17,277 nucleotides of DNA from Nitrospinota bacterium (GCA_016176845.1 JACOWJ010000013.1:1-17277); one strand, 5' to 3'. Positions 1,030-16,921 are shown, counted from the first letter of the stretch. Notes: generated by a model from the sequence alone, not told the origin. Translations and numbers: made by a program.

Positions 1030-1114
1030 GTTAGGGGCTAGGGGCTAGTGAAGAAGAACTTTTGCAAACCCTTAGCCTCTAGCCACTTAAAAATGGAAAT
1101 TTCTATACGATTAA
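1030..1114 (+). repeat. Family A heptamer-arm palindromic repeat, copy 1
   Basis: The left arm is GTTAGGGGCTAGGGGCTAG, the centre is TGAAGAAGAACTTTTGC, the right arm is a C-rich partial complement (around 1069-1086), and the tail is AAAAATGGAAATTTCTATAC followed by GATTAA. The left end (AAGTTAGGG) overlaps the last two bases of the crotonase TAA stop. The copy lies in the sense orientation of that gene, so it would form part of its mRNA 3' end. The right arm is imperfect. Confidence 0.85.
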
Positions 1115-1147
1115 ATTATCATGGTTATCGGTAAAACGCCAAGGCTG

Positions 1148-1185
1148 CCCGCAGGGAGATGACGCACCGTGTCCCTGCGGGTTTT
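1148..1185 (+). terminator. Probable intrinsic terminator after the crotonase gene
   Basis: A perfect 10-bp stem is formed by CCCGCAGGGA (1148-1157) and TCCCTGCGGG (1172-1181), with a 14-nt loop and then TTTTCTC. The T-run is short but the stem is very stable. An in-frame GTG at 1169 lies within this hairpin, which argues against it as the start of the next gene. Confidence 0.6.
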
Positions 1186-1206
1186 CTCAAGGTCAAAGGC
1201 ATTCAA

Positions 1207-1215
1207 AAAGGAGGG
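1207..1215 (+). promoter_or_regulatory. Ribosome-binding site that decides a TTG start
   Basis: AAAGGAGGG lies 5 nt (counted from GGAGG) before TTG at 1220. This is the best Shine-Dalgarno match around this gene. It places the start 51 nt downstream of the longest possible start (GTG at 1169). Confidence 0.6.
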
Positions 1216-1219
1216 TCTC

Positions 1220-1720
1220 TTGCTTCTCTGGCTTAAGAAGGGTCTATGGATTGCCCTGATACTGGTTTTCTGTGGGGTGGGGGTGCCGTCTTCCTCCTAT
1301 GCAACACCCCCCACATGGGAGAATGACAGCGAGAACGCGGTCCTCTTCCTCCCGATCAAATTGCCCTGGTACGCCCTAAAGTTCCTCTTTTATGAGCTCC
1401 CCAAGGCTGGCTTCTATCGATTGCCGGTGGCGACCGCCGACCGGTTCGAGGGGCCTCAGCCTCGCAAGCCGAGGGTGGCCCAGCTCATCGAGGAACTGAA
1501 CGATGAGGACCTCCTGGTCAGGGATTTCCTCCTGTTAGAGCTCAGGAAAGAGACCGGACAAGGTCTGACCTCTCGCCCCTTCTCCGATCCCGAGCAACAG
1601 AAGGCCTCCGTTCATTGGTGGAACCGATGGTGGCGGGCGAATCAGGGGGGGATCTCGAATGGAAATCGGGTGCCCGAGGCAGGTGAGCCTCGGGTAAAAG
1701 GCGCTGCCGGGGCAGATTAG
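1220..1720 (+). CDS. Small exported protein with HEAT-like C-terminal motif, function unknown
   Basis: From the TTG start this is 166 residues. The N-terminus is a signal peptide: a Lys-Lys n-region at 6-7, a hydrophobic core at about 9-22, and likely cleavage after SSSYA (Ala28). After a hydrophobic/aromatic stretch (about 41-70) comes an acidic-hydrophobic helix pair (about 87-110), then an ETGQ motif and a Trp-rich end, HWWNRWW (132-138). I recognise this pattern from HEAT-repeat-like proteins, where a final helix is followed by a Thr-Gly turn and a W-x-x-W-W segment. The last 25 or so residues look disordered. The protein is probably periplasmic or surface-associated. The gene overlaps the convergent lipoprotein gene by 4 nt at the 3' ends. 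No specific function can be assigned. Confidence 0.7.
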   Translation: MLLWLKKGLWIALILVFCGVGVPSSSYATPPTWENDSENAVLFLPIKLPWYALKFLFYELPKAGFYRLPVATADRFEGPQPRKPRVAQLIEELNDEDLLVRDFLLLELRKETGQGLTSRPFSDPEQQKASVHWWNRWWRANQGGISNGNRVPEAGEPRVKGAAGAD

Positions 1721-2406
1721 GGTTGGTTTTGCTTCTCCAGGAGGATATCCAGCTCCTTTAACCGCTTGAGCTCCGCCCTCAGGTCGGCATTCTCCCCTTT
1801 GATCTTCTCGATCCTCTGCTGGAGGCCTTCCATCTCCCGCTTGAGGGCTTCCCTTTCCTGCAAGAGCCGCTCCTGCTCCGCCTTCGCCCGGGCCAATTCC
1901 TGCACCAGGGCCTCCTGGGTCTGATGGACCTCCAGTGCTTTCTTTTCGCCCTTTTCCAGCTGATCGATGAGCCGGATCAAGGCCTCGGCCCAAGGCCGCT
2001 GAGGAATAGTTGGATAGCGCTCAATCAGGGAATGAAGGACCTCCCGGGCCTTCCCGCGGTCTGACGTAGGCCCTGCAGGATTCTGAAGATAGAGATAGCC
2101 CACCCGAAAGAGGGCTTTCGGCCCTTCCATGGTCTGAGGGTAAAGATCGGCAACCCGTTGATAGGTCTCGATCGCCTCCTGAAACCGGCCCTCTTTGAAG
2201 AGCTCCTCCGCCTGGCCGAAGGCCTCTCTGGCCTTATGGCGCTCCTCGGCCGCAGGCTTCGTCGGCCCGGGCGAGGGAGGGACTACGGCCCCGGCCGCGC
2301 TGGGGGCGGCGTTGGGGGCAGATGGGGTAGGGGGGGGAAGGGGAGGCGGAGGGACGACGGATGGGGTGGCACACCCCGCAAGGGCCAGGGCCAGCAATAA
2401 GACCAC
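1717..2406 (-). CDS. Predicted lipoprotein with TPR-like region and C-terminal coiled coil
   Basis: From GTG at 2406 this is 229 residues. A hydrophobic signal ends in the lipobox LALAGC, giving lipidated Cys12. Next come a Pro/Ala-rich linker (about 15-50), a TPR-like helical region (about 58-135, including EGRFQEAIETYQRV and a second helix pair ending in LIERYP), and a long Glu/Lys/Leu-rich coiled coil (about 150-225). This resembles periplasmic, membrane-anchored scaffold proteins of the CpoB/YbgF kind, but with the coiled coil after the TPR part; it is not a clear orthologue. The start is uncertain. A TTG at 2529 would add 41 residues and a more basic n-region (KGRHIGR) but would overlap the upstream gene by 97 nt. 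GTG 2406 leaves a 26-nt gap but has a weak ribosome site. It is last in a probable glyS-GGDEF-lipoprotein operon. Confidence 0.75.
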   Translation of the reverse strand: MVLLLALALAGCATPSVVPPPPLPPPTPSAPNAAPSAAGAVVPPSPGPTKPAAEERHKAREAFGQAEELFKEGRFQEAIETYQRVADLYPQTMEGPKALFRVGYLYLQNPAGPTSDRGKAREVLHSLIERYPTIPQRPWAEALIRLIDQLEKGEKKALEVHQTQEALVQELARAKAEQERLLQEREALKREMEGLQQRIEKIKGENADLRAELKRLKELDILLEKQNQP

Positions 2407-2432
2407 TCGCCCGATATGCCGGCCTTTGGCGC

Positions 2433-3791
2433 TTAGGTGGTTCGGGCGATGGACGCCATGGCCTGCTTGATGTCCTTGACGTAGTTGCTTCCCGGCAAGG
2501 ATTTGGCATATTCCTTTAACTCGGCGCAAGCCTCCGAGACCTCCAGGGGGCTGTGAAATTTTCCCCCTTCCACGGTAACAACGGCCAGGGAGATGGACAT
2601 CAACGGAAACCGCTGCTCCATCCCCCGGCGGTCATGGCCTTCGATATAGCCCCTAGTGACATCCTGCAGGCTATAGAAACTGGGAATGATTCGGTCGAAC
2701 TCCTGGACAATCCGGCTACAGATAGCATCGATTCGCGAAGGGTCCGTCATAATGATCACGAAATCGTCCCCGCCGATATGTCCGACTAAATCCCAGCCCT
2801 GGCCCAGTTCCTTCACGCTGCTCTCCAGGATTCGGGCCGTCTCCTTGATCACCTCGCTCGCCCAGGCGTACCCATATCGATCGGCATAAGCCTTGAAATT
2901 GTCCAGGTCGGAGTGACAGAGAGCAAACTCTTTTCCCCCCTTCAGAAGCTCCTCCAGCCGCCGTTGAATCACCAAGTTCCCGGGCAGCCGAGTCAGCGGG
3001 CTGGCGTCCAGGTTGATCTCCTCCAACTTCTTCAGCCGTTGGGCCATCAACCGAAAGGCGTGAGCCAGCTCGCCCACCTCGTCTTTAGCCTTTACCCGAA
3101 GGTTGTAATCGAAATCGCCTTCCGCGATGTGCTGGGTGGCCCGCTTCAGCTCCTTGATCGAGGAGGAAATGCTCAGGGTAATGGCCACCGCCAGGACGAT
3201 GCCTATGAGCAGGCTGAGGATACCCAGGATCAGAGTCAGTGCCGCCGCCCTCTCGCCCTTGCGTCTCAGCTCCACCATCCCGACATCTAGGGCCTGGTAG
3301 GAGGACCTCTCCAGCCCTTTGATCACTTCGATCAACCGCTTCAGGCGCTGAGTCCCCTCATGTTGAGAAAGCAGAGAGGGATCCAAGGGGCCTTCCTTCA
3401 GCACCTGGGGGACCTGTTGGAGGAAATGAGCCTCGTAGTTGGCATGCAAAGAGCCGATTCGTTTGAGCTTTCTTCTCTTCTCCCGCGGGGCCTGCTTCTG
3501 GAGATGGGCCAAAAGTTTTTTGAAATCCTGGCCTCTTGCCTGGAAGAGCGCCACGAAGTCCGGGTCCTTGGAGACCAAAAATTTCTTCTCGCTGCGCTCT
3601 TGAGCCACCAAGGTGCTCACCAGATCCTTGGAACGATCGATCATGGGAAAGTTATCGTTTACGATGAACTTGGTGATCTGATTCTGTTGGTAAAGGCCAT
3701 ATAGGGCATAAGCCCCCACTGCGATGGTCAAAAGGGACATCGAAAGATAGCCCAACAACATCTTCTTGGCGATGGTGAGCTTAAGAGCCAT
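2433..3791 (-). CDS. Membrane HAMP-GGDEF protein (putative diguanylate cyclase, variant active site)
   Basis: A 452-residue protein. Transmembrane helices lie at about 11-33 and 182-206 and enclose a mostly helical periplasmic sensor region of about 150 residues. A HAMP linker (about 207-258) and a GGDEF-family domain (about 262-435) follow. Family marks are LTRLPGN (266-272), DLDNF (295-299) and the signature GGDDF (340-344). The fourth signature residue is Asp rather than Glu. The upstream inhibitory-site position reads Q-G-W-D rather than RxxD, so c-di-GMP product inhibition is not expected. The two acidic metal-ligand positions are kept, so activity is possible but not certain. ATG 3791 has a GGAAGAG site, and the gene overlaps the end of glyS by 11 nt, which suggests translational coupling. 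The GGDEF family call is firm; enzymatic output is open. Confidence 0.88.
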
Positions 3792-5094
3792 CTCTTCCGC
3801 ATAGTCTCTCTAGGAGATAGGTCTCCAGCCCCTCGAGGGAGATCCGATCTTGGAGCATGGAGTCTCGTTCTCGAACGGTTACGGCGTGATCGGTCAGGGA
3901 TTGGACATCTACCGTCACGCAGTAAGGGGTCCCGATCTCATCTTGCCGCCGGTAGAGGCGACCGATGGAGCCGGTATCGTCATAGCGGGTGACGAATTGG
4001 CGCCGCAGATCCCTCGCGATCGATCGGGCCAGCTCCACCAGGTCGGGGCGGTTGCGCAGCAGAGGCAATACGGCCACCTTGATGGGGGCCAGGGTGGGGT
4101 GCAGGCCCAGCACGACCCGTTTCTCTCCCCGGACCTCCTCCTCTCGGTAGGCATCCAGCAGGAAGGCCAGGGTGGCCCGGTCGGCCCCGGCCGAGGGCTC
4201 GATTACGTACGGGATGAACCGCTCCTTCTGGAGGTCATCGAAGAAGCTCAAATCCTTGCGACTATACTGGGCATGTTGCTTGAGATCGAAGTCGGTCCGG
4301 TTGGCGATCCCCTCCAGCTCCGACCAGCCCATGGGAAAGAGGTACTCGATGTCGTAACAGCCCTTGGCGTAATGGGCCAGCTCATCCGGACCATGCTCGC
4401 GCAGGCGCAGATTGTCCTTCTCGATCCCGTACTTGCTGTACCACTGGAACCGCTCCTGGACCCAGTATTCGTGCCAATGCTGATCCGTCCCGGGCTCCAC
4501 GAAGTACTCGATCTCCATCTGTTCAAACTCGCGGGTGCGGAAGGTGAAGTTGCCCGGGGTGATCTCGTTGCGAAAGGCCTTCCCGATCTGGGCAATGCCG
4601 AAAGGAAGGCGGCGACGCATGGTTGTCTGGACGTTGACGAAGTTGGTAAAGATGCCCTGAGCCGTCTCAGGTCTCAGATAGACCACCGCGGCCTCATCCT
4701 CCACGGGCCCCATGAAGGTCTTGAACATCAGGTTGAATTGGCGGGCCTCGGTGAACTCCCCCCCGCACTCCGGGCAGCGAGCGGTTTGGAGGGAATCGGC
4801 CTTGAACCTCTTCTTGCAAGATTTGCAGTCCACCAAAGGATCCGTGAAGCCCTGAACATGCCCGGAGGCCACCCAAACCTGGGGATGCATGAGGATCGCG
4901 GCATCCAATCCTTCCATGTCCTCCCGCTGGTAGACCATCTCCCGCCACCAGGCCTCTTTGACGTTGCGCTTCAGTTCCGCCCCGAGGGGACCGTAATCCC
5001 AGGTGCTCCCCACGCCCCCATAGATCTCGCTGTTCTGAAAGATAAACCCCCTCCTCTTACAAAGGGAGACCACTTTGTCCATATCTCTGATCAT
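3781..5094 (-). CDS. glyS: Glycyl-tRNA synthetase, dimeric (eukaryote-like class II) type
   Basis: A 437-residue class IIa aminoacyl-tRNA synthetase that charges tRNA-Gly. Visible marks are RPETAQGIF (141-149), motif 2 [19 protein letters not shown] (174-192), [10 protein letters not shown] (262-271) and motif 3 GADRATLAF (303-311). A C-terminal anticodon-binding domain begins near [15 protein letters not shown] (331-345). Four cysteines, C90/C93 and C107/C110, form a probable zinc site in the insertion after the first catalytic segment. Length fits the alpha-2 family and not the bacterial GlyQ/GlyS tetramer. ATG 5094 has no nearby Shine-Dalgarno; a second ATG four codons on (5082) is possible, and an in-frame CTG at 5133 lies 11 nt from AAAGGAGG. 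It is first gene of a probable leftward operon. Confidence 0.96.
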
Positions 5095-5104
5095 CGAACA
5101 TTCG

Positions 5105-5128
5105 CGCAGGAAACCACCCGTTTCCGCG
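5105..5128 (-). other. Hairpin in the glyS leader just before the start codon
   Basis: On the minus strand GGAAAC and GTTTCC enclose a five-base GGGTG loop. Outer CGC/GCG pairs extend the stem past one bulged T. It sits 10 nt upstream of the ATG at 5094, between that codon and the strong AAAGGAGG at 5152-5145. It could affect translation initiation of glyS. No poly-T run follows, so it is not an intrinsic terminator. Confidence 0.4.
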
Positions 5129-5160
5129 GGCAGAGAAGTGCGCCCCTCCTTTCGGTTGGA

Positions 5161-5248
5161 GTTAAGTCAGGGATTAGGGATTAGTGATGAAGAGCTTCGC
5201 TAATCCCTAGCCTCTGGCCGCTTAAAATGGAAATTCCTATACGATTAA
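5161..5248 (+). repeat. Family A repeat, copy 2
   Basis: The left arm is CAGGGATTAGGGATTAG and the centre is TGATGAAGAGCTTCGC. The right arm starts CTAATCCCTAGCCTC, and the tail is TTAAAATGGAAATTCCTATA followed by CGATTAA. The arms pair well (TAGGGATTAG with CTAATCCCTA). It lies between glyS and its predicted promoter, so a glyS transcript would carry it in antisense. Confidence 0.85.
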
Positions 5249-5255
5249 GAAATTA

Positions 5256-5284
5256 GACAGGGTGAACAGGATTTACAGGATGGA
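5256..5284. repeat. Short ACAGGA nonamer repeat
   Basis: Three imperfect direct units of nine bases follow one another: ACAGGGTGA, ACAGGATTT and ACAGGATGG. This GAACAGGATTTACAGGAT-type string is familiar to me as a dispersed intergenic repeat in environmental genomes, from memory only. It begins about 8 nt after family A copy 2. Confidence 0.5.
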
Positions 5285-5336
5285 TTCGCTACTGCGCGCC
5301 TTCAAAGACGGGGCTCGCCGTAGAAAGCCAGGGTCT

Positions 5337-5365
5337 AAAGTAACATTTTTGGCTGGAAGTGTCAA
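5337..5365 (-). promoter_or_regulatory. Putative promoter for the glyS operon
   Basis: On the minus strand a perfect -35 box TTGACA (5365-5360) is followed by a 17-nt spacer and TACTTT (5342-5337). A TG precedes the -10 box in extended -10 position. Transcription would start near 5330 and give a leader of about 235 nt that runs through the ACAGGA repeat and family A copy 2 in antisense. The -10 box matches only 3/6. Confidence 0.4.
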
Positions 5366-5386
5366 GTTAGCAGGGATTAGGGCTAA
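5363..5386 (+). repeat. Degenerate family A left-arm relic
   Basis: CAAGTTAG, then CAGGGATTAGGGCTAA, matches the left end and two heptamers of family A. There is no centre, right arm or tail. It could be a truncated eighth copy, and it overlaps the putative glyS -35 box by three bases. Confidence 0.4.
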
Positions 5387-5417
5387 GTACAGCTCCACGG
5401 GAAAGGGTGTCCAATAA

Positions 5418-5476
5418 ACCGCAGAGACGCAGAGGGAAAACTTTGAAAAATCTCTGCGCCTCTGCGTCTCTGCGGT
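5418..5476. repeat. Palindromic CGCAGAGA/TCTCTGCG repeat
   Basis: Perfect 18-bp inverted arms, ACCGCAGAGACGCAGAGG (5418-5435) and its complement (5459-5476), enclose a 23-nt A/T-rich loop. The arms are built of octamers: two CGCAGAG units on the left, and three on the right if the extra TCTCTGCG at 5451-5458 is counted. It is unrelated in sequence to family A but has the same plan. It lies between the predicted glyS promoter and the 3' end of the UroD-family gene. The rest of 5095-5555 shows no gene I can support. Confidence 0.75.
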
Positions 5477-5555
5477 AAATGGGTACTTTATTGTGTGGCG
5501 TTATACTAAGGGCTCGTTAAACTACCCCCCGTCAAAAAAGGAGCTCCCTTTGCCA

Positions 5556-6557
5556 TCAAGGCAACCCGGGGTGGCCCGAACCCTGCGATCGGGGATAGCG
5601 GCCAAAACGGAGGGCGGCCCGATACATGGTCCGCACATTTCGGGGATCGAGCCCCGGACCCAAACCCCCTGAGGTACCGAAGATATAGCCCCCGCCAGGG
5701 GCTGCCACCCGAAGGGTCTCCCGGACCGTCCGCTCGACCTCCTCCCGGGTCGCGGAGGAGGAGAGCAGGTGCAAGTCCAGGTTGCCCATCAGGCAGAGCC
5801 GATCCCCGTATTTCCGCTTGATGGCGCCGATCTCCATGCCGGCCGAAGGTTGCAAGGAATGCAGCCCATGAATGCCCAGGGCGACCAGATCGTCCAGGAT
5901 CGCATGGAGTCGGCCATCCGAATGGAAGAAGACCGGGACCCCCATCTCCCCGATCTGCCCAACCTCCTCTTCGATGCCGGGGAAGACTACCTCCCGAAGC
6001 TGGGCGGGGGAAAGGAAAGTGCCGTCGTTGTAAGCCAGGTCATCGCCGATGATGACCGCCTGCGCCCCGGCCCCCACGGCTCGCCGGGCCAAAACGGCGT
6101 TCTGCCCCGCCAGCCTTCTCACCAGGGCCCTCGCCTCTCGCGAGGAGCTGACGCAGGCCATCAGGGCCTGGCCGAAGCCCATCAGGGCGCAGAGGGGACC
6201 CAACCCTCCACCCACCAAGGCAAAGACGAAGAGCTCCGTCTGTTGAGACCAGCGGCGGACCTGGGAGAGAGCTCCCCCTTCCGTCGAGGGCAGCTCCCCA
6301 CGATCCAGCAGCTCTTGGATATCTCCACAACTTGCAGGAGGTAGTGCGAAAGGGTAGTGGGGGGGCTCGTCGAGGCCGCAGACCACCAAGTCCAAGCCCA
6401 AAGAGGCCGTGAAGCGCCGGGTCTGCTCCCAAGGGTCCCCTGTCGGCTCTTCCAGGACCTGGGCGATCAACTGGGGGTCGAGGACCAGCTCCCCCATGGG
6501 GACCCGGTCGGGCTCGCGGCGTTGGAGGGTCAGGGAAACCCGCTCTCGGGGAGTCAT
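5556..6557 (-). CDS. Uroporphyrinogen decarboxylase (URO-D) superfamily protein
   Basis: From ATG 6557 this is 333 residues. It begins MTPRERVSLTLQRREPDRVP, which matches the usual N-terminus of the UroD/MtaA-like superfamily. Inner marks are GDDLAYNDG (171-179), HSDG (212-215), a GLHSLQP-type segment (231-237) and MGNLDLHLL (257-265). The methyltransferase branch (MtaA/MtbA) uses His-x-Cys zinc ligands; here the motif is H-S-D-G without Cys, so it is not a standard corrinoid methyltransferase. It also lacks context for a true haem-pathway HemE. Function is unknown. An ATG at 6605 would add 16 residues, but these are read from a hairpin repeat (6571-6628), so I reject it. No ribosome site is visible before 6557. 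It lies downstream of kdsD on the same strand. Confidence 0.85.
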   Translation of the reverse strand: MTPRERVSLTLQRREPDRVPMGELVLDPQLIAQVLEEPTGDPWEQTRRFTASLGLDLVVCGLDEPPHYPFALPPASCGDIQELLDRGELPSTEGGALSQVRRWSQQTELFVFALVGGGLGPLCALMGFGQALMACVSSSREARALVRRLAGQNAVLARRAVGAGAQAVIIGDDLAYNDGTFLSPAQLREVVFPGIEEEVGQIGEMGVPVFFHSDGRLHAILDDLVALGIHGLHSLQPSAGMEIGAIKRKYGDRLCLMGNLDLHLLSSSATREEVERTVRETLRVAAPGGGYIFGTSGGLGPGLDPRNVRTMYRAALRFGRYPRSQGSGHPGLP

Positions 6558-6570
6558 AAGATCGGCTCGT

Positions 6571-6628
6571 GGCTCATAGCTCATAGCGAATAGCTCATGA
6601 CTCATGGCCCGTAAACGCTATGAGCTAT
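6571..6628. repeat. Palindromic GCTCATA heptamer repeat
   Basis: Tandem heptamers GCTCATA, GCTCATA, GCGAATA, GCTCATG and ACTCATG run from 6572. After a short spacer come inverted units GCTATGA and GCTATAA. Perfect 13-bp arms are ATAGCTCATAGCG (6576-6588) and CGCTATGAGCTAT (6616-6628). GAGCTATGAGCC recurs at 6737-6748, past family A copy 3, as if copy 3 had entered this repeat. It spans the upstream alternative start codons of the UroD-family gene. Confidence 0.65.
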
Positions 6629-6630
6629 AA

Positions 6631-6735
6631 ATTAGGGATTAGGGGCTAGGGGCTGGTAAGAAAGAAGAGCTTTTGCTAATCCCTAGCCCCTAGTCCCTAG
6701 TCCCTAGCCCCTAAAAATGGAAATTCCTATACGAT
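6631..6735 (+). repeat. Family A repeat, copy 3 (longest right arm)
   Basis: The left arm has three heptamers (TTAGGGA, TTAGGGG, CTAGGGG). The centre is TAAGAAAGAAGAGCTTTTGC. The right arm has five heptamers (CTAATCC, CTAGCCC, CTAGTCC, CTAGTCC, CTAGCCC), and the tail is AAAAATGGAAATTCCTATAC followed by GA. GAGCTAT occurs on both sides (6622-6628 and 6737-6743), a possible 7-bp target duplication, though the flanking GCTCATA repeat also explains it. It fills the kdsD to UroD-family gap. Confidence 0.9.
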
Positions 6736-6750
6736 CGAGCTATGAGCCAT

Positions 6751-7713
6751 TCAAACCACTCCGGCCTTGAGCATGTCGTGGAGGTGGACGATGCCCTCGG
6801 CCCTTCGCTGCTCATCCAGGATCAGCAGGCTGGTGATGGCGTAGTACTCCATCACCTGAATGGCCTGAGCCGCCAGAGACTCGCCCTCGATCGTCTTGGG
6901 GTTGACGGTCATGATCTCCTGGGCGGTCTTGTGAAAAAGGTCGGTCTCCCTCTCCATCAGGCGCCGCAGGTCCCCATCGGTGACGATCCCATGGACGATT
7001 CCCTCCTCGTCCACCACGCTCGTCACCCCCAACCCTTTGGAGGAGATCTCGTAGATCACATCCTTCAGGAGGGCTTCCCGGGTCACTCGGGGAACTTCCT
7101 TTCCGGTATGCATGAGGTCTTTGACTTTCAGGAGAAGCCTCTTCCCCAACGATCCCCCGGGGTGGAACAGGGCAAAGTCCTCCTTCCGGAGCCCTTTCCT
7201 CTGCAAGAGGGCAACGGCGAGGGCATCCCCCATCGCCAGGGTGGCCGTAGTGCTGGCCGTGGGCACCAGGCCCAAGGGACAGGCCTCCTCCTCCACCCCC
7301 ACATCCAGGACGATATCGCTTTCCCGGGCCAGGGTCGAGCTCAGGTTTCCCGTGATCCCGATCAGGGGGACGCGGAAACGTTTGATGGCGGGCAGGAGCC
7401 GGAGCACCTCTTCGGTCTCGCCGCTGTTGGAGATTCCCAGGAGCAAGTCCCCCCGCGTCACCATCCCCAGGTCACCGTGGATCCCCTCAGCCGGATGGAG
7501 GAAAAGGGCCGGGGTGCCGATGCTGGCGAAGGTGGAGGTGATCTTCTTGCCGATCAATCCCGACTTGCCCATTCCGGTGATCACCACCCTCCCCTGACAG
7601 CGATGGATCAGATCCACCGCCTGGAGAAACTCTTCCCCGATCCGACCCGCCAGGGCCGCCACCGCCCGACTCTCCACCAGCAATGCCTTCTTGGCCAGCT
7701 CCAGGATCTCCAT
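6751..7713 (-). CDS. kdsD: Arabinose-5-phosphate isomerase (KdsD/KpsF family)
   Basis: A 320-residue cytoplasmic enzyme that interconverts ribulose-5-phosphate and arabinose-5-phosphate, the first step to Kdo of lipopolysaccharide. The N-terminal SIS sugar-phosphate domain shows GMGKSG (47-52), ISNSGETEEV (94-103) and PTASTTATLAMGDALA (151-166). HPGG (184-187) carries the His linked to catalysis in this family. Two CBS domains follow (about 199-260 and 265-320), as in full-length KdsD. The ATG has an AGAGGA site 4 nt upstream. Family A copy 4 begins immediately beyond that site, so the gene's leader is mostly repeat sequence. No other Kdo or Lpt gene lies in the window. A divergent promoter region shared with purB is proposed. 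Confidence 0.95.
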   Translation of the reverse strand: MEILELAKKALLVESRAVAALAGRIGEEFLQAVDLIHRCQGRVVITGMGKSGLIGKKITSTFASIGTPALFLHPAEGIHGDLGMVTRGDLLLGISNSGETEEVLRLLPAIKRFRVPLIGITGNLSSTLARESDIVLDVGVEEEACPLGLVPTASTTATLAMGDALAVALLQRKGLRKEDFALFHPGGSLGKRLLLKVKDLMHTGKEVPRVTREALLKDVIYEISSKGLGVTSVVDEEGIVHGIVTDGDLRRLMERETDLFHKTAQEIMTVNPKTIEGESLAAQAIQVMEYYAITSLLILDEQRRAEGIVHLHDMLKAGVV

Positions 7714-7721
7714 CGTTCCTC

Positions 7722-7813
7722 TTAGGGGTTAGGGATTAGCGATTAGGGGTTAGTGAAGAAGAGGTTTCGCTAATCCCTGGCCTATAGCCCCTTAAAATGG
7801 GAATTCCTATACA
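7722..7813 (+). repeat. Family A repeat, copy 4
   Basis: Left-arm heptamers are TTAGGGG, TTAGGGA, TTAGCGA and TTAGGGG. The centre is TGAAGAAGAGGTTTCGC, the right arm is CTAATCCCTGGCCTATAGCC, and the tail is TTAAAATGGGAATTCCTATA followed by CA. Its left end abuts the kdsD ribosome site and it is in antisense to kdsD. It is in direct tandem with copy 5. Confidence 0.88.
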
Positions 7814-7815
7814 AG

Positions 7816-7913
7816 CAAGTTAGGGACTAGGGATTATGGGCTAGGGGCTAGTGAAGAAGAACTTTTGCTACCCCCTAGCCTCTAGCCCTTTAAAAATGGG
7901 AATTCCTATACGA
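7816..7913 (+). repeat. Family A repeat, copy 5
   Basis: The left end is CAAGTTAGGG, followed by heptamers with four G-runs (7823-7847). The centre is TGAAGAAGAACTTTTGC, the right arm is TACCCCCTAGCCTCTAGCCC, and the tail is AAAAATGGGAATTCCTATAC followed by GA. AGCAAGTT flanks it on both sides (7814-7821 and 7913-7920). This is either a target duplication or the start of a further truncated unit. Confidence 0.88.
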
Positions 7914-7921
7914 GCAAGTTC

Positions 7922-7951
7922 CGGGGAGCTTGCCTTCGGGCTAACTCCCCG
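7922..7951. other. Hairpin with TTCG tetraloop
   Basis: CGGGGAG (7922-7928) pairs with CTCCCCG (7945-7951), and GCC (7932-7934) with GGC (7939-7941) across a TTCG loop. The two stems are separated by a 3-by-3 internal loop. No T-run follows on either strand, so it is not an obvious terminator. It would lie in the kdsD leader if the promoter at 7971-8000 is right. Confidence 0.35.
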
Positions 7952-7970
7952 AGCTCCCATAGGCAGAGAG

Positions 7971-8000
7971 AGGATAGCATAATCGAGATAAGCCCGTCAA
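7971..8000 (-). promoter_or_regulatory. Putative kdsD promoter (divergent)
   Basis: On the minus strand TTGACG (8000-7995) is followed by an 18-nt spacer and TATCCT (7976-7971). It would give a leader of about 250 nt carrying the TTCG hairpin and family A copies 5 and 4 in antisense. The -10 box matches 4/6. Confidence 0.3.
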
Positions 8001-8034
8001 CCGGGAGAAAACCGTTTTCTTTTTTCTCCTTGAC
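7996..8034. promoter_or_regulatory. Dyad between back-to-back -35 boxes (operator candidate)
   Basis: GTCAA (7996-8000) and TTGAC (8030-8034) are inverted, with GGAGAAAA (8004-8011) and TTTTCTCC (8022-8029) nested inside them. A separate 15-bp palindrome, AGAAAACCGTTTTCT (8006-8020), lies at the centre. The dyad puts kdsD and purB promoters symmetrically around one site. A LacI/PurR-like operator is conceivable from the AAAAC/GTTTT halves, but the extra central base differs from the E. coli PurR box. Confidence 0.35.
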
Positions 8035-8059
8035 CCCGGCCGGTTGCGCACCTTACAAT
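8030..8059 (+). promoter_or_regulatory. Putative promoter of the purine operon
   Basis: TTGACC (8030-8035) and TACAAT (8054-8059) are separated by 18 nt, and each box matches the sigma-70 consensus at 5/6 positions. The start point would be near 8066, leaving a leader of about 33 nt before purB. This is the best promoter match in the window. Confidence 0.55.
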
Positions 8060-8098
8060 TACAGACAACCTCGGTGCTAAAAAGAAAGGGCGGACGAA

Positions 8099-9421: not shown

Positions 9422-9495
9422 GGATTAGGGGCTAGGGACTAGTAAGAAAGAAGAGCTTTTGCTAATCCCTAGCCCCTAGTCCCTAGCCCCTAAAA
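9407..9495 (+). repeat. Family A repeat, copy 6 (inside the purine operon, tail lost)
   Basis: The left end is CAAGTTAGGG, with heptamers holding four G-runs (9414-9437). The centre is TAAGAAAGAAGAGCTTTTGC. The right arm is CTAATCC, CTAGCCC, CTAGTCC, CTAGCCC. After CTAAAAA the conserved tail is missing and AGGAGAGCAGCACC follows instead, with the purC ribosome site. It is nearly identical to copy 3 apart from heptamer number, so the two look recently related. Its hairpin lies in the purB-purC mRNA. Confidence 0.9.
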
Positions 9496-9503
9496 AAGGA
9501 GAG
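9492..9503 (+). promoter_or_regulatory. purC ribosome-binding site abutting a repeat
   Basis: AAAAAAGGAGAG lies where other family A copies read AAAAATGGAAAT, 10 nt before the TTG start of purC. The A-run belongs to the repeat and the GGAG may be a modified remnant of its tail. Confidence 0.55.
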
Positions 9504-9511
9504 CAGCACCA

Positions 9512-10219
9512 TTGGAAAAAAGGGAAAAGATTTACGAGGGAAAGGCCAAGGTCCTCTATGCCACGGAGGACCCGAATTTCTTGATCCAATATTTCAAAGA
9601 CGATGCGACCGCTTTCAACGCCCAGAAGCGGGGCACGATCCGGGAAAAAGGGCTCCTAAACAACCAGATCTCTTCCACCCTCTTCCAGTTCCTGGAGGGC
9701 GCGGGAATCGAGACGCATTTCGTCAGGACGCTGGGTGAGCGGGAGATGTTGGTCAAACGGCTGGAGATCCTGCCGATAGAGGTCGTGGTGCGAAACATCG
9801 TGGCCGGCAGCCTCTCGCAACGACTGGGGCTGCCCGAAGGGACCCCGCTCGCCGGAACCATTCTGGAGTTTTATTACAAGCGAGACGACCTGGGCGACCC
9901 CATGATCAACGAGTATCACATCCGGGCCCTGGGACTGGCCACGGAGGAAGAGATGGCCAGGGTCAGCGCCATGGCGCTGCGAATTAATGTCCTCTTGCAA
10001 CCCTTCCTGGAAAAGAGAGGCCTCCGGTTGATCGACGCCAAGTACGAGTTCGGGCGGTACGAAGGCCGAATCCTGCTGGGCGACGAGATCAGCCCCGATG
10101 GCTGCCGTTTCTGGGACATGGAAACCGATGAGAAGATGGACAAGGACCGGTTCCGCAGGGACCTGGGACGGGTGGAAGAGGTTTACCAAGAGGTCTGGCG
10201 CCGGGTCTGCGCGGCCTAA
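9512..10219 (+). CDS. purC: Phosphoribosylaminoimidazole-succinocarboxamide (SAICAR) synthase
   Basis: A 235-residue ATP-dependent ligase that joins aspartate to CAIR to form SAICAR, the substrate PurB then cleaves. Visible marks are the N-terminal YEGKAKVLY (8-16), the first family signature VVVRNIVAGSL (91-101), LIDAKYEFG (173-181) and the second signature DEISPDGCRFWD (191-202). Length is typical of the short bacterial form. The start is TTG: AGGAG lies 10 nt upstream and no ATG fits the conserved N-terminus. It follows the repeat after purB and leads directly into purS. Confidence 0.97.
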   Translation: MEKREKIYEGKAKVLYATEDPNFLIQYFKDDATAFNAQKRGTIREKGLLNNQISSTLFQFLEGAGIETHFVRTLGEREMLVKRLEILPIEVVVRNIVAGSLSQRLGLPEGTPLAGTILEFYYKRDDLGDPMINEYHIRALGLATEEEMARVSAMALRINVLLQPFLEKRGLRLIDAKYEFGRYEGRILLGDEISPDGCRFWDMETDEKMDKDRFRRDLGRVEEVYQEVWRRVCAA

Positions 10220-10234
10220 ATGGAAGGGGGGAGG

Positions 10235-10558
10235 ATGGCGCGGGCAAAGGTCTATGTGACGCTAAAGGCCGGAATCCTGGATCCCCAGGGGAAAGCGGTC
10301 AAGGGGGGCCTTGAGGCCTTGGGGTTCTCCGAGGTAGAGGACGTTCGCGTCGGGAAATATATCGAGCTCCGGGTGGCTGATGGTTCCGAGGAGAATTTAA
10401 AGGCACGGATCGATGAGATGTGCCAACGGTTGTTGGCCAACCCGGTGATCGAGGATTTCCTGTCCGAAATCGTGCAGGAGGCCTCATCCGAAGAGGACTC
10501 CGATCCCTCAAAGTTTCGAAGGAAATTAGATCTGGATCACAAGATCAATAGAAAATAG
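10235..10558 (+). CDS. purS: FGAM synthase subunit PurS, with C-terminal extension
   Basis: A small subunit that bridges PurL and PurQ in the FGAR-to-FGAM step. The core runs from ARAKVYVTLKAGILDPQGKA (2-21) through GFSEVEDVRVGKYIEL (30-45) to NPVIEDFLSEIV (69-80). PurS is usually about 80-85 residues. Here 25 more follow, acidic then basic (from EASSEEDSD to the final DHKINRK), probably a flexible tail. ATG 10235 is preferred because it matches the family start and has AAGGGG just upstream. ATG 10220, directly after the purC stop, would add five residues. There is a 37-nt gap to argS. Confidence 0.93.
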   Translation: MARAKVYVTLKAGILDPQGKAVKGGLEALGFSEVEDVRVGKYIELRVADGSEENLKARIDEMCQRLLANPVIEDFLSEIVQEASSEEDSDPSKFRRKLDLDHKINRK

Positions 10559-10595
10559 AGGTCAATCGATTCCGGGCATGAGGTAATAACCCGAT

Positions 10596-12293
10596 ATGAT
10601 CCAATTCAGAGAAGAGATCGTGCACCGGCTGGCCCAAATCCCTGGCCTATCCGAAAAGCTCGTGAGACCGCTCCTGGAGAAACCGGCTGATCCCTCTTAC
10701 GGAGAGTATGCCTTACCTTGCTTCCGGCTCGCCAGGGAGTGGCGCCGCCGCCCCAATGAGATCGCGGAAGATCTGGCCCGCCAATTGGGCTCCTTCGGCT
10801 CCATCGCATCCGTCGAAAGCGTTGGACCCTACTTGAACTTTAAGATCGATCCGTTGGCCTTGACGCGTTCCGTGTTGGGGGAGATTGGAGAGAAGGGCCC
10901 CGACTATGGCTCCGACAAACTGGGAGAGGGGAAGACGATCGTGATCGACTATTCTTCACCCAACATCGCCAAGCCATTTCATATGGGGCACCTGCGCTCC
11001 ACCATCCTGGGGAGCTCCCTCAAACAGATCTTTTCCACCCTCGGCTACCGCGTGGCTTCCATCAACTTCCTGGGAGATTGGGGGACGCAGTTTGGCCTTT
11101 TGGCCCTCGCCTACCAGAAATGGGGCGACAATCAGGAGCTCGAGGCCCGCCCCATCCGTTACCTCTATGAGCTCTATGTGAAGATCAACCAGGCCGCGCA
11201 AGAGGAGCCCGCCATCCAAGAGGCGGCGCGCGAAAACTTCCGGCAGATGGAGGAAGGCGCCCGCGAGCCCCTCGACCTATGGAACCGCTTTCGGACCCTC
11301 TCCATCCAGGAGTACGAGCGGGTCTACAGCCGGCTGGGTGTCCATTTCGACGTCTATAGTGGGGAGAGCTTTTACCGGGAGAAGGTCCAGGGCGTCCTCG
11401 AGGAGCTGAAGGCCAAGGGCCTCCTGCAGCTCTCCCAAGGGGCCTCCATCGTCGATCTTCTGCCTTGGGGTCTCAACGTGGCGCTCCTGGCCAAGAGCGA
11501 CGGGACTACCCTCTACCTGACGCGCGACCTGGCGGCCACCCACGAGCGGTACGCCGAGTACCGCTTCCACCGGCTAATCTACGTGGTGGGCTCCGATCAA
11601 CGGCTCCACTTCACCCAGCTGTTCAAGACCCTGGAGCTGATGGGTCGGCCATGGGCAGACCGGTGCGTCCACGTGGATTTCGGTCGCATCCTGGGCATGT
11701 CAACCCGCAAGGGACAGGCCGTCTTCCTCGATGACGTCCTCGACGAGGGAAAACGGCGCGCCCTGGAGAAGATGCAGGCCAACCCGGAAAAGTTCGCTGA
11801 GGTAGCAGACCCCGACCTGACGGCCGATATCTGTGGCATGTCTGCCATCGTCTTCAGCGACCTGTCGAGGCGGCGGGTCAAAGATTACGAGTTCGACTGG
11901 GAACAGGTCCTGGCCTTCGAGGGAGATACGGGGTTATACCTGCAGAACGCCCACGCCCGGGTGGCCGGGATCATGCGCAAGTCGGGGGTCGCGCTGCCGA
12001 GCTCAATCGACTACGGGCTGTTGCTCGGCGAGGGGGAGACGCTCGATCTGGTGAGGCACCTGTCCGCCTTCCCCGAGGTGGTCCATCGGGCGGCCGAAGA
12101 GTATGAGCCCGCCTTCATCTGTACCTACCTGATCGGTCTTGCCCGGCTGCTTCATCAGGCTTACAAGGCCCTGTGGGTGCAGGGTCGGCCCCCCCCACTG
12201 GCCGAGGCCCGGCTTAAGCTCCTATGGTCGGTGAAGCAGGTGCTGGCCAACGGGATGCGGCTTCTCGGGATGACCCCGCTGGAAAGGATGTGA
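10596..12293 (+). CDS. argS: Arginyl-tRNA synthetase
   Basis: A 565-residue class I aminoacyl-tRNA synthetase of normal length. The N-terminal additional domain (about 1-90) is followed by the HIGH region, here [17 protein letters not shown] (120-136, HMGH at 129-132). GDWGTQFG (160-167) is typical of ArgRS. The KMSKS loop reads GMSTRKG (367-373). The C-terminal DALR anticodon-binding domain ends in [16 protein letters not shown] 10596 has GAGGT 11 nt upstream. The gene lies between purS and purQ on the same strand and stops 2 nt before the purQ start, so it is almost certainly transcribed with the purine genes. Function is firm; its place in the operon is the unusual part. Confidence 0.97.
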
Positions 12294-12295
12294 CC

Positions 12296-12982
12296 GTGAA
12301 ATTTGGCGTGATCGTCTTCCCCGGCTCCAACTGCGACCATGACTGCTACCATGTGATTCGACATGTAATGGGAATGCCGGTGGAGTTTGTCTGGCACAAG
12401 GAGACTCACCTGAGCGGTTTCGACTGCCTGATTCTCCCTGGAGGCTTCTCCTACGGGGACTACTTGCGTACGGGGGCCATTGCCCGCTTCTCTCCCGTGA
12501 TGCGGGCGGTAGAGGATTTCGCCGAGGCGGGTGGGCCAGTCCTGGGGATCTGCAATGGCTTCCAAATCCTGCTGGAGGCCGGGCTGCTGCCAGGGGCGAT
12601 GTTGCGCAACCGCTCCTTGAGCTTCATCTGTCAGGACGTCTATTTGTGTCTGGAGAACCCTCATATCCCCTTTACCCTTTTAGGCCACTCCAGCCAGGTC
12701 CTGCGGATGCCCATCGCTCACGGGGAGGGGAATTACTACGCGGACCCCCAAACCCTGGCGGAGCTGGAAGCAAACGGACAGGTCGTCTTTCGATACTGCA
12801 CCGCCGAGGGGGAGAAGACCGACGGGGCCAACCCCAACGGCTCCCTCCATCACATCGCCGGCATCTGCAACCGGGAGGGGAACGTGCTGGGAATCATGCC
12901 CCACCCCGAGCGGTGCTGCGAGGGCATCTTGGGGAACGAGGATGGCAAGCTGATCTTTGAGAGCATTCTGCTTACACGTTAG
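12296..12982 (+). CDS. purQ: FGAM synthase glutaminase subunit PurQ
   Basis: A 228-residue class I (triad) glutamine amidotransferase that supplies ammonia to PurL. The nucleophile is Cys86 in LGICNGFQ (83-90); His203 and Glu205 in MPHPER complete the triad. [12 protein letters not shown] (47-58) is typical of PurQ. The GTG start has GGAAAGGA 7 nt upstream, inside the end of argS. An ATG at 12224 would overlap argS by 70 nt and add residues foreign to the family. Length matches stand-alone PurQ, as expected with separate purS and small purL. Confidence 0.97.
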
Positions 12983-12996
12983 GCGGAGCGACACTT

Positions 12997-13125
12997 ATGA
13001 AGTCACAACCCCTCAACTGCAATGTTTACACAAATGCTATTCTAACCGTCCAAAACTGGCAGTCCAAATCCTTTAACCATGCGGGTTTCGGGCGATGCTA
13101 CCCGATGTTTAGGATAGGCTTTTAA
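12997..13125 (+). CDS. Possible 42-residue small ORF between purQ and purL
   Basis: ATG 12997 opens 42 codons ending in TAA at 13123, 14 nt after purQ and 13 nt before purL. GGAG lies 8 nt upstream. The peptide starts [16 protein letters not shown] and ends MFRIGF. It is rich in Asn, Cys and aromatic residues, and I recognise no motif or membrane helix. The stretch has lower GC than its neighbours. It may be a real small protein, a leader, or simply non-coding spacer; chance is quite possible at this length. Confidence 0.25.
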
Positions 13126-13138
13126 TCGAAAGGCGTCC

Positions 13139-15379
13139 ATGCAAGAACCCCCAATCACCCCGGAGCTCGTTGCCCGGCACGGGCTGACGGAAGAAGAATA
13201 CGACAGGATCCTGAAGGCCCTGGGCCGGGAGCCCACTTTCACGGAGCTGGGGATCTTCTCCGCCTCATGGAACGAGCACTGTTCCTACAAGAGCTCGAAG
13301 CCCGTCCTGAAGCTCTTCCCCACCTCAGGGGAAGATATCCTGATCGAAGCCGGAGAAGAAAATGCCGGGGTGGTGGACATTGGGGATGGGCTGGTGGTCT
13401 GCTTTAAGGTCGAGTCCCACAACCATCCCTCCGCCGTGGAGCCCTTTCAGGGAGCGGCCACGGGCGTCGGCGGCATCCTCCGCGACATTTTTACCATGGG
13501 CGCCCGGCCCATCGCTCTGCTGGATTCGCTGCGTTTCGGACCACTCACCGAGCCGAGAAACCGGTACCTTCTCCATGGAGTGGTTTCAGGGATTAGCTTC
13601 TACGGGAATTGTATGGGTGTCCCCACCGTCGGCGGGGAGGTTTACTTCGACGAGGCCTATCAGGGCAATCCCCTGGTCAACGTCCTGTGCGTTGGGATCG
13701 CCAGGAGGAAGGAGATCGTCCGGGCCCGCGCCTCGGGGACCGGGAACCCTGTTTACTACGTGGGCTCGGCCACCGGCCGAGATGGGTTGGGGGGGGCGAG
13801 CTTCGCCTCGCGGGAGCTCACGGAGGAGTCGGAGAGGGACCGGCCTGCGGTCCAGGTGGGGGATCCCTTCACGGAAAAGCTCCTCCTGGAGGCCTGTCTG
13901 GAGCTCTTCAAGACCGGCCATGTGGTGGCCATCCAGGATATGGGGGCCGCGGGCCTGACCTGCTCTACGGCCGAGATGGCGGCTCGGGGAGGTTGCGGAA
14001 TCGAGATCGACGTGGAGAAGGTGCCCCGGCGCGAGCCCGGGATGATCCCTTATGAGGTCCTGCTCTCGGAGTCCCAGGAGCGGATGCTGCTCGTCATCCA
14101 GCGGGGAAGGGAGGAGGCCGTAGAGACGATCCTCCGCAGGTGGGACCTCCACGCCGTCGCCATTGGCCGGGTGACGGACGACGGCCTCGTTCGAGTAAAG
14201 GATTGCGGCAGGGTCGTGGCGGAAATCCCGGCCCGGGCCCTGGTGGACGAGGCCCCGGTCTATGTCCGGGAGGAGCGGGAGCCCCCTTACCTGAGAGAGA
14301 CCCGGAATCTTGACCTCCGGTGCCTCGAGGAACCTCAGGATTACCAGGGAATTCTCATACGGTTGCTCTCCTCTCCCACCCTGGCCAGCAAGCAGTGGGT
14401 TTTCCGGCAGTACGACCATATGGTGCGGACCAATACGGTGGTGCTGCCTGGCTCCGATGCCGGGGTAGTCCGGATCAAAGGAACCGATAAGGCCCTGGCC
14501 CTCACCATCGATGGGAATGGCCGATACAGCTACCTGGATCCTTACGAGGGGGGGAAGATCGCGGTGGCGGAGGCGGCAAGGAATCTGGTCTGCAGTGGGG
14601 CGCGACCGTTGGCCATTACCAACTGCCTGAACTTCGGCAACCCCGAGAAGCCCGAGATCTTCTGGCAATTTCGCCGGTGCGTAGAAGGTATGGCAGAGGC
14701 CTGCCGCAGATTCAATACTCCCGTCACCGGGGGAAATGTGAGCTTTTACAACGAAGGTCCGGAAGGGGCTGTCTATCCCACTCCCGTAGTGGGGATGGTA
14801 GGACTGATCGAGGAGCTCGGCCGAATGGCGCCCATCACTGCATGGTTCAAAAATGAAGGGGACCTCATTATCCTCCTGGGCGAGACGCAGGAAGCGCTGG
14901 GAGGAAGCGAGTATCTGAAGGAGATCCATGGACGGGTGGCCGGTCTTCCTCCCCAGCTGGATCTGGAGCGAGAGGCCTCCCTCCAGCAGGCCTGCCTGGA
15001 AGCAATTCGGGCGGGAATCATTCATTCCGCCCACGATTGTTCGGAAGGAGGGCTGGCCATCGCCCTGGCGGAGTGCTGCATCTGCGGACCAGGCCATGGA
15101 AGAGGGGCCCACATTGATCTCTTCGCCCCGGAGATCCGAACAGATGCCCTGCTTTTCGGAGAGTCCCCATCGAGGATCGTCCTTTCCCTGGAGGCCCAGC
15201 ACCTGCCGCAGCTGAAAGGGATCGCTGAGGGCCGAGGGATACCGCTCAGTCTCCTTGGGCAGGTTGGGGGAGATCACTTTTCACTGGAGATGTCCGCCTC
15301 CGGCCTTTATATCCACTTGCCAATCTCGGAGTTGAAGGGGATTTGGAGTGGGGCCATAGAGCGGTGCTTACGGATATGA
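13139..15379 (+). CDS. purL: FGAM synthase large subunit PurL (small, PurS/PurQ-dependent type)
   Basis: A 746-residue ATP-dependent enzyme that converts FGAR and ammonia to FGAM. The length marks the small PurL that needs separate PurS and PurQ, both present here. Motifs are [15 protein letters not shown] (41-55, with the family's conserved His47), [20 protein letters not shown] (91-110) and [12 protein letters not shown] (262-273). The C-terminal half repeats the fold, with [13 protein letters not shown] (494-506) and [14 protein letters not shown] (629-642). The ATG has AAAGG 5 nt upstream. It ends 14 nt before purF. Confidence 0.97.
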
Positions 15380-15393
15380 AGGAGTTTCGCCCG

Positions 15394-16812
15394 ATGGAAA
15401 CAATGGAAACCATAGAAGACAAGCTTCACGAGGAATGCGGCATCTTTGGAGTCTTTGGATATCCGGAGGCGGCCAATCTGACCTATCTCGGCCTCTACTC
15501 CCTCCAGCACCGAGGGCAGGAAAGCTCCGGCATCGTTTCTTCCGACGGCCGGGAGCTATACGCCGAGGTCTCCATGGGCCTGGTGGCAGACATCTTCACC
15601 CGGGAGCGGTTGGCGCGTCTTCCCGGGGGGATCGCCATAGGCCACAACCGTTACTCGACGACCGGCTCCAGCCAGTTGAAGAACGCCCAACCGATCCTGG
15701 TGGATTTCTCCCAAGGACCCCTGGCCCTGGCCCACAATGGCAACCTGGTCAATGCCACCGAGATCCGAAAAAGGTTAGAAGCCAAGGGATCGATCTTCCG
15801 CTCCACCATGGACAGCGAAGTGATCGTCCATCTGATCGCTGCCTCCCGAGAGGGAGACCTGATCTCGCGAGTCATCGACGCCATGCAGCAATTGGAGGGG
15901 GCCTTCTCCCTTTTGATTATGACCAAGAACCAGTTGATCGGAATCCGAGATCCCCAGGGGTTCAGACCCCTCTCCCTGGGGCGGTTGGGCAATGCCCTGA
16001 TCCTGACCTCGGAGACATGCGCCTTGGACCTGATCGAAGCGCACTTCATTCGAGACCTGGAACCCGGTGAGATCCTGCGAATCGATCAAAATGGGATGGA
16101 GTCTTTTCGGCCCTTTACCCCTCGGAAATGTTCCCAGTGCGTCTTCGAGTTCATCTACTTTTCCCGGCCGGATAGCGACGTGTTCGGTCAGAACGTTCAC
16201 CTGGTGCGCAAAGCGCTTGGCAGGAACCTGGTCCATGAGCTGCCGGTGGAGGCCGATATCGTCGTGCCGGTGCCCGATTCCGGGGTCCCGGCGGCCTTGG
16301 GCTACGCCGAAGAATCTGGGATCCCCTTCGAGATGGGGCTCATCCGGAACCATTATGTGGGACGTACGTTCATCGAACCGCAACAGTCGATCCGCCATTT
16401 CGGGGTCAAGATCAAGCTCAACGCCAACAAACAGCTTTTAAAGGGAAAGAGGGTCTTGATCGTAGATGATTCGATCGTGCGGGGCACCACCAGCCGAAAG
16501 ATCGTCCAGATGGTCAGGAGGGCCGGGGCCAAAGAAGTCCATGTTCGGATCAGCTCTCCCCCCAATACCCATCCCTGCTTCTATGGGATCGATACGCCCA
16601 CCCACAGCGAGCTTATTGCCGCCAACTGCTCCGTGGAGGAGATCTGCCAATACCTGACGGCCGATACCCTCGCCTACCTGAGCCTGGATGGCCTGACCCA
16701 GGCCATTGGCCCTTCATCAGAGGACTTCTGCCTGGCCTGCTTCAATGGAAATTACCCCGCCGTAAAGCTGTTGGAAAGGTTGGAGCTGGCAGGGGAGGGA
16801 AGGAGATCATGA
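15394..16812 (+). CDS. purF: Amidophosphoribosyltransferase (Fe-S, B. subtilis type)
   Basis: A 472-residue enzyme making phosphoribosylamine from PRPP and glutamine, the committed and feedback-inhibited step. Cys15 (EECGIFG) is the N-terminal nucleophile after a 14-residue propeptide, presumably cleaved. The PRPP loop is [10 protein letters not shown] (357-366). Fe-S ligands expected from B. subtilis PurF are all present: Cys249 ([13 protein letters not shown]), Cys395 (HPCFYGID), Cys446 and Cys449 (FCLACFNG). An oxygen-sensitive cluster is thus likely. ATG 15394 is chosen because AAGGAG lies 9 nt upstream. ATG 15376, overlapping the purL stop, and ATG 15343 are longer alternatives with a foreign N-terminus. 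It is last gene of the operon. Confidence 0.97.
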
Positions 16813-16833
16813 GAGGATTATCCTTGATTCAAA

Positions 16834-16921
16834 CGTATAGGAATTTCCATTTTTAAGAGGCTAGAGGTTTGGAAGTTCTTCTTCACTAATCCCTAACCCC
16901 TAATCCCTAACCCCTAACTTG
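16834..16921 (-). repeat. Family A repeat, copy 7 (opposite orientation)
   Basis: Read on the minus strand it starts CAAGTTAGGGG directly after the gyrA TGA stop. Four G-runs follow (16914-16891), then TGAAGAAGAACTTCC, a decayed right arm with CCTCTAGCCTC, and the tail AAAAATGGAAATTCCTATAC followed by G. It fills almost the whole gap between convergent purF and gyrA. The right arm pairs poorly, so the palindrome is eroded, while the tail is intact. Confidence 0.88.

Follow-up and report, generated by a model that had tools for sequence, protein, structure and literature searches.

One-ended transposition by insertion sequences of the IS91 and ISCR groups disseminates resistance and virulence genes; how the targets and stopping sites of these sequences are defined is poorly known. 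IS91 is expected to insert without target duplication (PMC5714925). For IS801, the tetramers GAAC, GGAC, CAAG and CGAC have been reported, and the one-ended miniatures are made up of the right end and a left tetramer (PMC3189936); its one-ended events finish at GAAC or CAAG (PMC6354349). The oriIS of ISCR1 is GTGGTTTATACTTCCTATACCC (PMC13023784), and a hairpin is known to serve as the terminator of a Helitron (PMC4778049).

We analysed a 17,277-nucleotide stretch of DNA from a Nitrospinota bacterium (the window), which is contig C18 of the assembly of this genome (G000; 1.53 Mb, 61 contigs, 68% complete). The repeats it contains are very probably non-autonomous rolling-circle mini-transposons of the IS91 type, composed of a start tetramer N-R-A-N' with TTA (the ter end), an interchangeable palindrome and a constant oriIS tail, with a target tetramer flanking the element.

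Repeat copies and their constant tail

The sequence-only reading of the window had described seven palindromic copies and a relic, with a tail on six of the seven copies that is not matched at the left end. The copies and the tails were found as described, and the bounds were corrected (Table 1); the relic is also present and is now read as a truncated left end abutting a different MITE. The elements are about 85-110 bp long and contain no gene, and all seven copies are intergenic. Compared with dinucleotide shuffles, the hairpins of five of the six tailed copies are more stably folded (z -1.8 to -3.6), and that of the copy at 16832-16921 is not (z +0.2).

Table 1. Features of the window; element bounds include the left tetramer and stop just short of the target tetramer
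Feature	Position	Strand	Description
Element 1, type A	1027..1111	+	left word TAAG-TTA (non-complementary), heptamer hairpin, ori tail with one substitution (AAATTTCTATACGAT)
Target word of element 1	1112..1118	+	TAAATTA, right of the element
Element 2, type A	5163..5245	+	left word TAAG-TCA, hairpin, ori tail; target TAAG from 5246 breaks the rule
Relic	5363..5386	+	truncated left end CAAGTTAG... plus heptamers; abuts the following inverted-repeat MITE (~5384-5509)
Element 3, type A, complete	6628..6735	+	TAAATTA, hairpin, ori tail ...CCTATACGAT; nested in a type-C hairpin repeat
Target word of element 3	6736..6742	+	CGAGCTA
Element 4, type A	~7718..7815	+	degenerate left word CCTC-TTA, hairpin, ori tail with altered end (CCTATACAAG)
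Element 5, type A	7816..7914	+	abuts element 4, CAAGTTA word common to both; target word CAAG from 7915
Element 6, type A	9407..~9498	+	left word CAAGTTA, hairpin; no ori tail after CTAAAAA
Element 7, type A	16832..16921	-	left word CAAGTTA (16921-16915), weak hairpin, ori tail; target TGAATCA from 16831 downwards

Several other features of the window were observed. The start of element 6 supplies the stop codon of an upstream purB-like ORF, and this tail-less copy ends in AAAAAAGGAGAGCAGCACCATTG (9490-9512), a remnant that may serve as the ribosome-binding site of the purC-like gene that comes next. The inverted-repeat MITE that follows the relic is a second mobile element, in which imperfect inverted repeats (CTTAGTACAACTCCACGTAAATAAGTATCCA type) flank a GCAGAGACGCAGAGG hairpin; its end has nine tail-like places in 721 kb, several of them adjoining GTAC. 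The 17-kb contig is about 1% of the assembly yet holds 7 of the ~51 type-A copies, a local cluster of one hairpin type. Rfam gave zero matches in the window.

The tail (AAAATGGRAATTYCTATACG, at most two mismatches) occurs at 132 places in the 1.53-Mb genome and the core of the type-A hairpin at about 51, with 0 places for the reversed control in both searches, so the repeats are a dispersed family, as had been supposed, and not these copies only. The constant oriIS tail reads AAAATGGAAATTCCTATRCGAT. When the tails are aligned, at least six unrelated palindromic repeats precede them in G000: type A, that of the window (GGGGCTA heptamers), type B (GGGGACA heptamers), type C (AGCTCAT heptamers), type D (GATTGCTTCGC...), type E (TTTTAGG/TTTTAAG heptamers) and type F (CCCCCCTTCG...). 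The median folding z-score is negative for every type (-1.6 to -6.6). Since unrelated palindromes stand before one tail, the conserved unit is the tail, and not the hairpin that the sequence-only reading had taken for it. On the left, most elements begin with a short word that ends in TTA; the left end has only this 7-base word, nothing there matches the 20-base tail, and there are no terminal inverted repeats. Arrays of elements occur, in which tandem pairs share one junction word (e.g. 7718-7914), and most copies are solitary with the tetramer word alone on the left side. Types A, B, C and E (e.g. L082, L090, L103) are built of tandem 7-base units (GGGGCTA, GGGGACA, AGCTCAT and TTTTAGG), so that these four unrelated families share a period of 7.

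Five other genomes carry the tail: G060 (record title 'bacterium Zod_Metabat.896') at 69 places, G001 (same order as G000) at 53, G062 and G063 (both 'Candidatus Latescibacterota') at 40 and 7, and G061 ('Syntrophobacteraceae') at 36. It stands there behind other palindromes, in several lineages with differing hairpins, and it has genome-specific dialects (ATGGAAATTCC, ATGAAAATTCC or ATGCAAATTCC). The type-A core was found in none of these five genomes, and the type D hairpin is common to G000 and G001. Exact matches to the tail plus target were present in 4 of 297 genomes of G061's phylum and 4 of 64 of G062's phylum. The record titles of these metagenomic bins were accepted as given. Some contigs could be mis-binned, but the presence of tens of copies in a dialect particular to each genome speaks against this.

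Element ends, target words and insertion sites

The tail is an oriIS-type end: it reads AAATTCCTATACGAT followed by CAAG in the window, AAATTCCTATCGAT followed by GAAC in E. coli IS91, and ACTTCCTATACCC in ISCR1. Read from known copies, the right end of IS1294 is ...TTTTAATTCCTATCGCT before CAAG and that of ISEc37 is ...TTTTAATTCCTATCGAT before GAAC, and 12 further E. coli plasmid stretches end in ...ATTCCTATCGAT or ...CGTT, then GAAC or CAAG. The yardstick consisted of ISEc37, these 12 short stretches and, for IS1294, only the right end of a 3-kb IS locus on a Shigella virulence plasmid (L167). The window tail (...GGAAATTCCTATACGAT before CAAG) aligns with these IS91-type right ends with one extra base, and stands at equal distance from a like tetramer. 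As in the IS91/ISCR group, an ori of the type (A)ATTCCTAT..C adjoins the target at the right end, insertion is beside a GAAC/CAAG-like tetramer with a tetramer at the left end too, and neither target duplication nor terminal inverted repeats are seen. An insertion sequence of this group carries its own Y2 HUH transposase, and the repeats do not; with no gene inside and only transposase relics elsewhere in the genome, they are filed as non-autonomous elements with IS91-type ends and not as IS.

The tail is followed by AT and then by a tetramer N-R-A-N', usually with TTA after it. Among the 86 solo right-hand sites of G000, N is complementary to N' at 69, compared with 29.3 expected, and none of 5000 permutations reached 69. 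The mutual information of N and N' is 0.83 bit, and that of the other pairs tested is at most 0.21. The rule was replicated in G062 (15/16), G001 (9/11) and a mixed set of further genomes (8/9), the samples from G060 and G061 being too small to show it. It also holds for the left words of 55 of 66 elements (those with a left word ending in TTA). About 20% of the right-hand words break the rule; in the window, element 1 does so in its left word and element 2 on both sides, and element 4 has a degenerate left word. The targets in G000 include GAAC/CAAG-like words and also TAAA, AAAT, CGAG, TGAA and others, and TAAA and AAAT are absent from the published IS91/IS801 target lists that could be compared. 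The tetramers of G062 (GAAC, GGAC, CAAG, CGAG and GCAC) largely agree with those reported for IS801.

The complementarity within N-R-A-N' is a fact of the sequences; it extends the known GAAC/CAAG and is apparently unreported. It suggests an intrastrand base pair in a single-stranded target. As a tentative extension, to which we give a little less than an even chance, IS91-family transposases may pick their targets through this pair, that is, any N-R-A-N' in which N is complementary to N' and the pair closes a tight turn, and mini-elements with a bare ori may exploit it in bacteria of several phyla, with interchangeable hairpins as terminators.

Element 3 interrupts a type-C hairpin, and its flanks (...GCTATGAGCTA joined to CGAGCTATGAGCC) are continuous when the copy at 6628-6735 is removed. 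The joined flanks resemble intact type-C copies (L069, L075, L083 and L090), and a D-type element in L071 has the identical position in another type-C copy. The nested insertion fixes the element as tetramer and TTA, hairpin, tail and CGAT, directly before CGAG, with zero bases lost or duplicated. Tandem arrays dominated the first results of the nested-junction search, and two nested insertions were clean. The sequence-only reading had proposed a search for empty sites in close relatives; the continuous type-C hairpin is equivalent to such a site, and identical occupation, as for fixed gene-specific elements, was not what was found. The test for target duplication was negative: the two words that bound an element match to 4.35 of 8, no more closely than shuffled pairs (4.30 of 8), so the words are not a duplicated target. 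An inverted-repeat MITE moved by a DDE transposase, which the sequence-only reading had also set aside, was ruled out by the lack of both terminal inverted repeats and target duplication.

Putative mobilisation and competing explanations

No transposase is encoded in the window, as had been noted before, and no intact transposase gene was found in the G000 assembly, which is 68% complete. A decayed piece of an IS91-family transposase on contig C24 has an HPHLH motif and matches Pfam Y2_Tnp (E 1.1e-6). Contig C20 carries a C-terminal piece of an IS91 transposase, with AAAGCAAATTCCTATCGAG about 0.4 kb downstream at the contig end (ori core AAATTCCTAT), and a short solo copy of the same 3' end is on C22 near 4359-4417. 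IS91-transposase matches were obtained in five of the six tail-bearing genomes, above the curated cut-off in two, and only G061 has the transposase as one uninterrupted gene. A multi-copy ORF search in 721 kb gave no multi-copy transposase, and an autonomous element with the exact tail was not found in IMG/VR, plasmids or the order of G061. One IMG/VR search gave 0 matches and another 8, all of them one coding stretch of phage-like contigs, and these were rejected as chance.

The ori end of the IS91-type element of G061 (TTAATTTCCAAATACGAG before CAAG) and that of an EVDPL-type IS91 group from the order of G061 (GCGATTTCCTATCAC) are related to the window tail and different from it. IS91-type transposases of this order with a C-terminal EVDPLxCPRC zinc motif (L176 and L181-L185) have the latter ori followed by CT, with no N-R-A-N' word. 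In G061 (L159, contig C78), an intact IS91-type transposase immediately follows the gene for a tyrosine recombinase; plasmids of Herpetosiphon, Roseicitreum and Rhizobium show this gene order too.

The IS91/ISCR ori in the tail, the IS91-like tetramers, the lack of duplication and the decayed IS91 transposases, one of them with the same ori core behind it, make it most likely that the elements are moved in trans by a Y2 HUH transposase and not by Y1/RAYT. The IS91/ISCR-family enzyme would nick at the ori tail, and one strand would be displaced leftwards through the hairpin, which probably aids termination, and be cut at the N-R-A-N' tetramer. The single strand would be joined before a new N-R-A-N'TTA site without target duplication. 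If termination needs little beyond the tetramer, one ori could acquire different neighbouring hairpins, which would explain many hairpin types with one tail. That the elements transpose, whether they do so at present, and what in the structure underlies the N-N' rule are matters of inference.

The hairpin and tail may instead have been united through the tail that the elements share, either by gene conversion or by homologous recombination, with spread still by the IS91 route. Many D, E and F hairpins are tail-less and hairpins are also found joined to the ends of another MITE; because types D and E are often without the tail, the two parts may have separate histories. The left boundaries, however, are N-R-A-N'TTA words that obey the same rule as the targets, and elements of types D and A occupy exactly the same target in two type-C repeats, so we regard this explanation as unlikely, although it fares best among the alternatives. 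The chimaeras may have arisen by one-ended capture or by recombination at the tail.

The sequence-only reading had favoured REP-like elements, with a Y1 (RAYT/IS200-type) transposase as their mover and the hairpin and its single-stranded foot as what this enzyme recognises. Its idea of an HUH-type single-strand enzyme acting on an asymmetric end was retained, and a hairpin with a constant foot would suit Y1, as would the Y1_Tnp matches in G001, G061 and G062. However, no hairpin is conserved among the unrelated types, whereas the tail is constant and matches the IS91/ISCR oriIS, which belongs to the Y2 HUH family. The suggested search for a genome-encoded Y1 gave no Y1_Tnp (PF01797) in G000, 68% complete, or in G060 with its 69 tails, and no linked Y1 transposase in either, which leaves Y1 mobilisation very improbable.

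Selection could maintain fixed functional elements between genes, such as terminators or regulatory hairpins whose tail binds a protein. Such elements would fit the intergenic position of all seven copies, but the precise insertions inside other repeats, the arrays, the sharing of the tail and not the hairpin by several lineages, and ends that belong to a transposon family render them slightly less probable still. A cassette array of the integron kind, rearranged by a tyrosine integrase, as the tandem pairs with one common junction word (7718-7914) might suggest, can practically be dismissed, since most copies are solitary with only the tetramer word on the left, attC-type boxes were not seen by eye, the hairpin types are few and repeated, and the IS91-type ori tail largely refutes it.

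Comparison with known systems

Read as IS91-type mini-transposons, the roughly 100 natural insertions in one genome act like a target-site assay that gives exact boundaries and the complementarity rule. The rule makes 'GAAC or CAAG' a mechanistic prediction that is testable with any IS91-family transposase. Some of the short hairpin families that lie between genes in metagenomic genomes could plausibly spread in this way too, by a shared ori that acquires different hairpins. Literature searches, covering few subscription papers, returned neither the tail and hairpin strings nor a description of IS91-type miniature families of this kind. The repeats are not a new class of element; the variant, for which no description was found, appears novel in its bare ori with interchangeable hairpins, its copy number (>130), its occurrence in several lineages and its target complementarity rule.

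REP/BIME elements with RAYT (Y1) are likewise short intergenic hairpins with a conserved foot and a high copy number, but Y1 enzymes have cognate hairpin sequences, whereas the present repeats combine a freely varying hairpin sequence with an IS91-type ori as the tail. Non-autonomous Helitrons (e.g. Helraiser, PMC4778049) are similar in their rolling-circle HUH mechanism, their hairpin close to the terminator end, capture by read-through and the lack of duplication; unlike the elements here, they are eukaryotic, have TC...CTAG ends and depend on a helicase-bearing transposase. ISCR1 (PMC13023784) has the core TTCCTATAC at its right end and acquires neighbours by one-ended transposition, but it carries a transposase with adjoining resistance genes and has no hairpin mini-elements. 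IS91, IS1294 and ISEc37 of E. coli have the right end AATTCCTATCGAT followed by GAAC or CAAG; they encode a transposase, whereas the extra base of the tail here is an A or G before CG and the targets extend beyond those two words. The one-ended miniatures of IS801 in Pseudomonas syringae (PMC3189936, PMC6354349) are similarly short, with an intact right ori end, a GAAC/CAAG-like left tetramer, no duplication and movement in trans. They are, however, fragments of the IS itself with no left palindrome, in contrast to the unrelated hairpins set on a bare ori in the elements described here.
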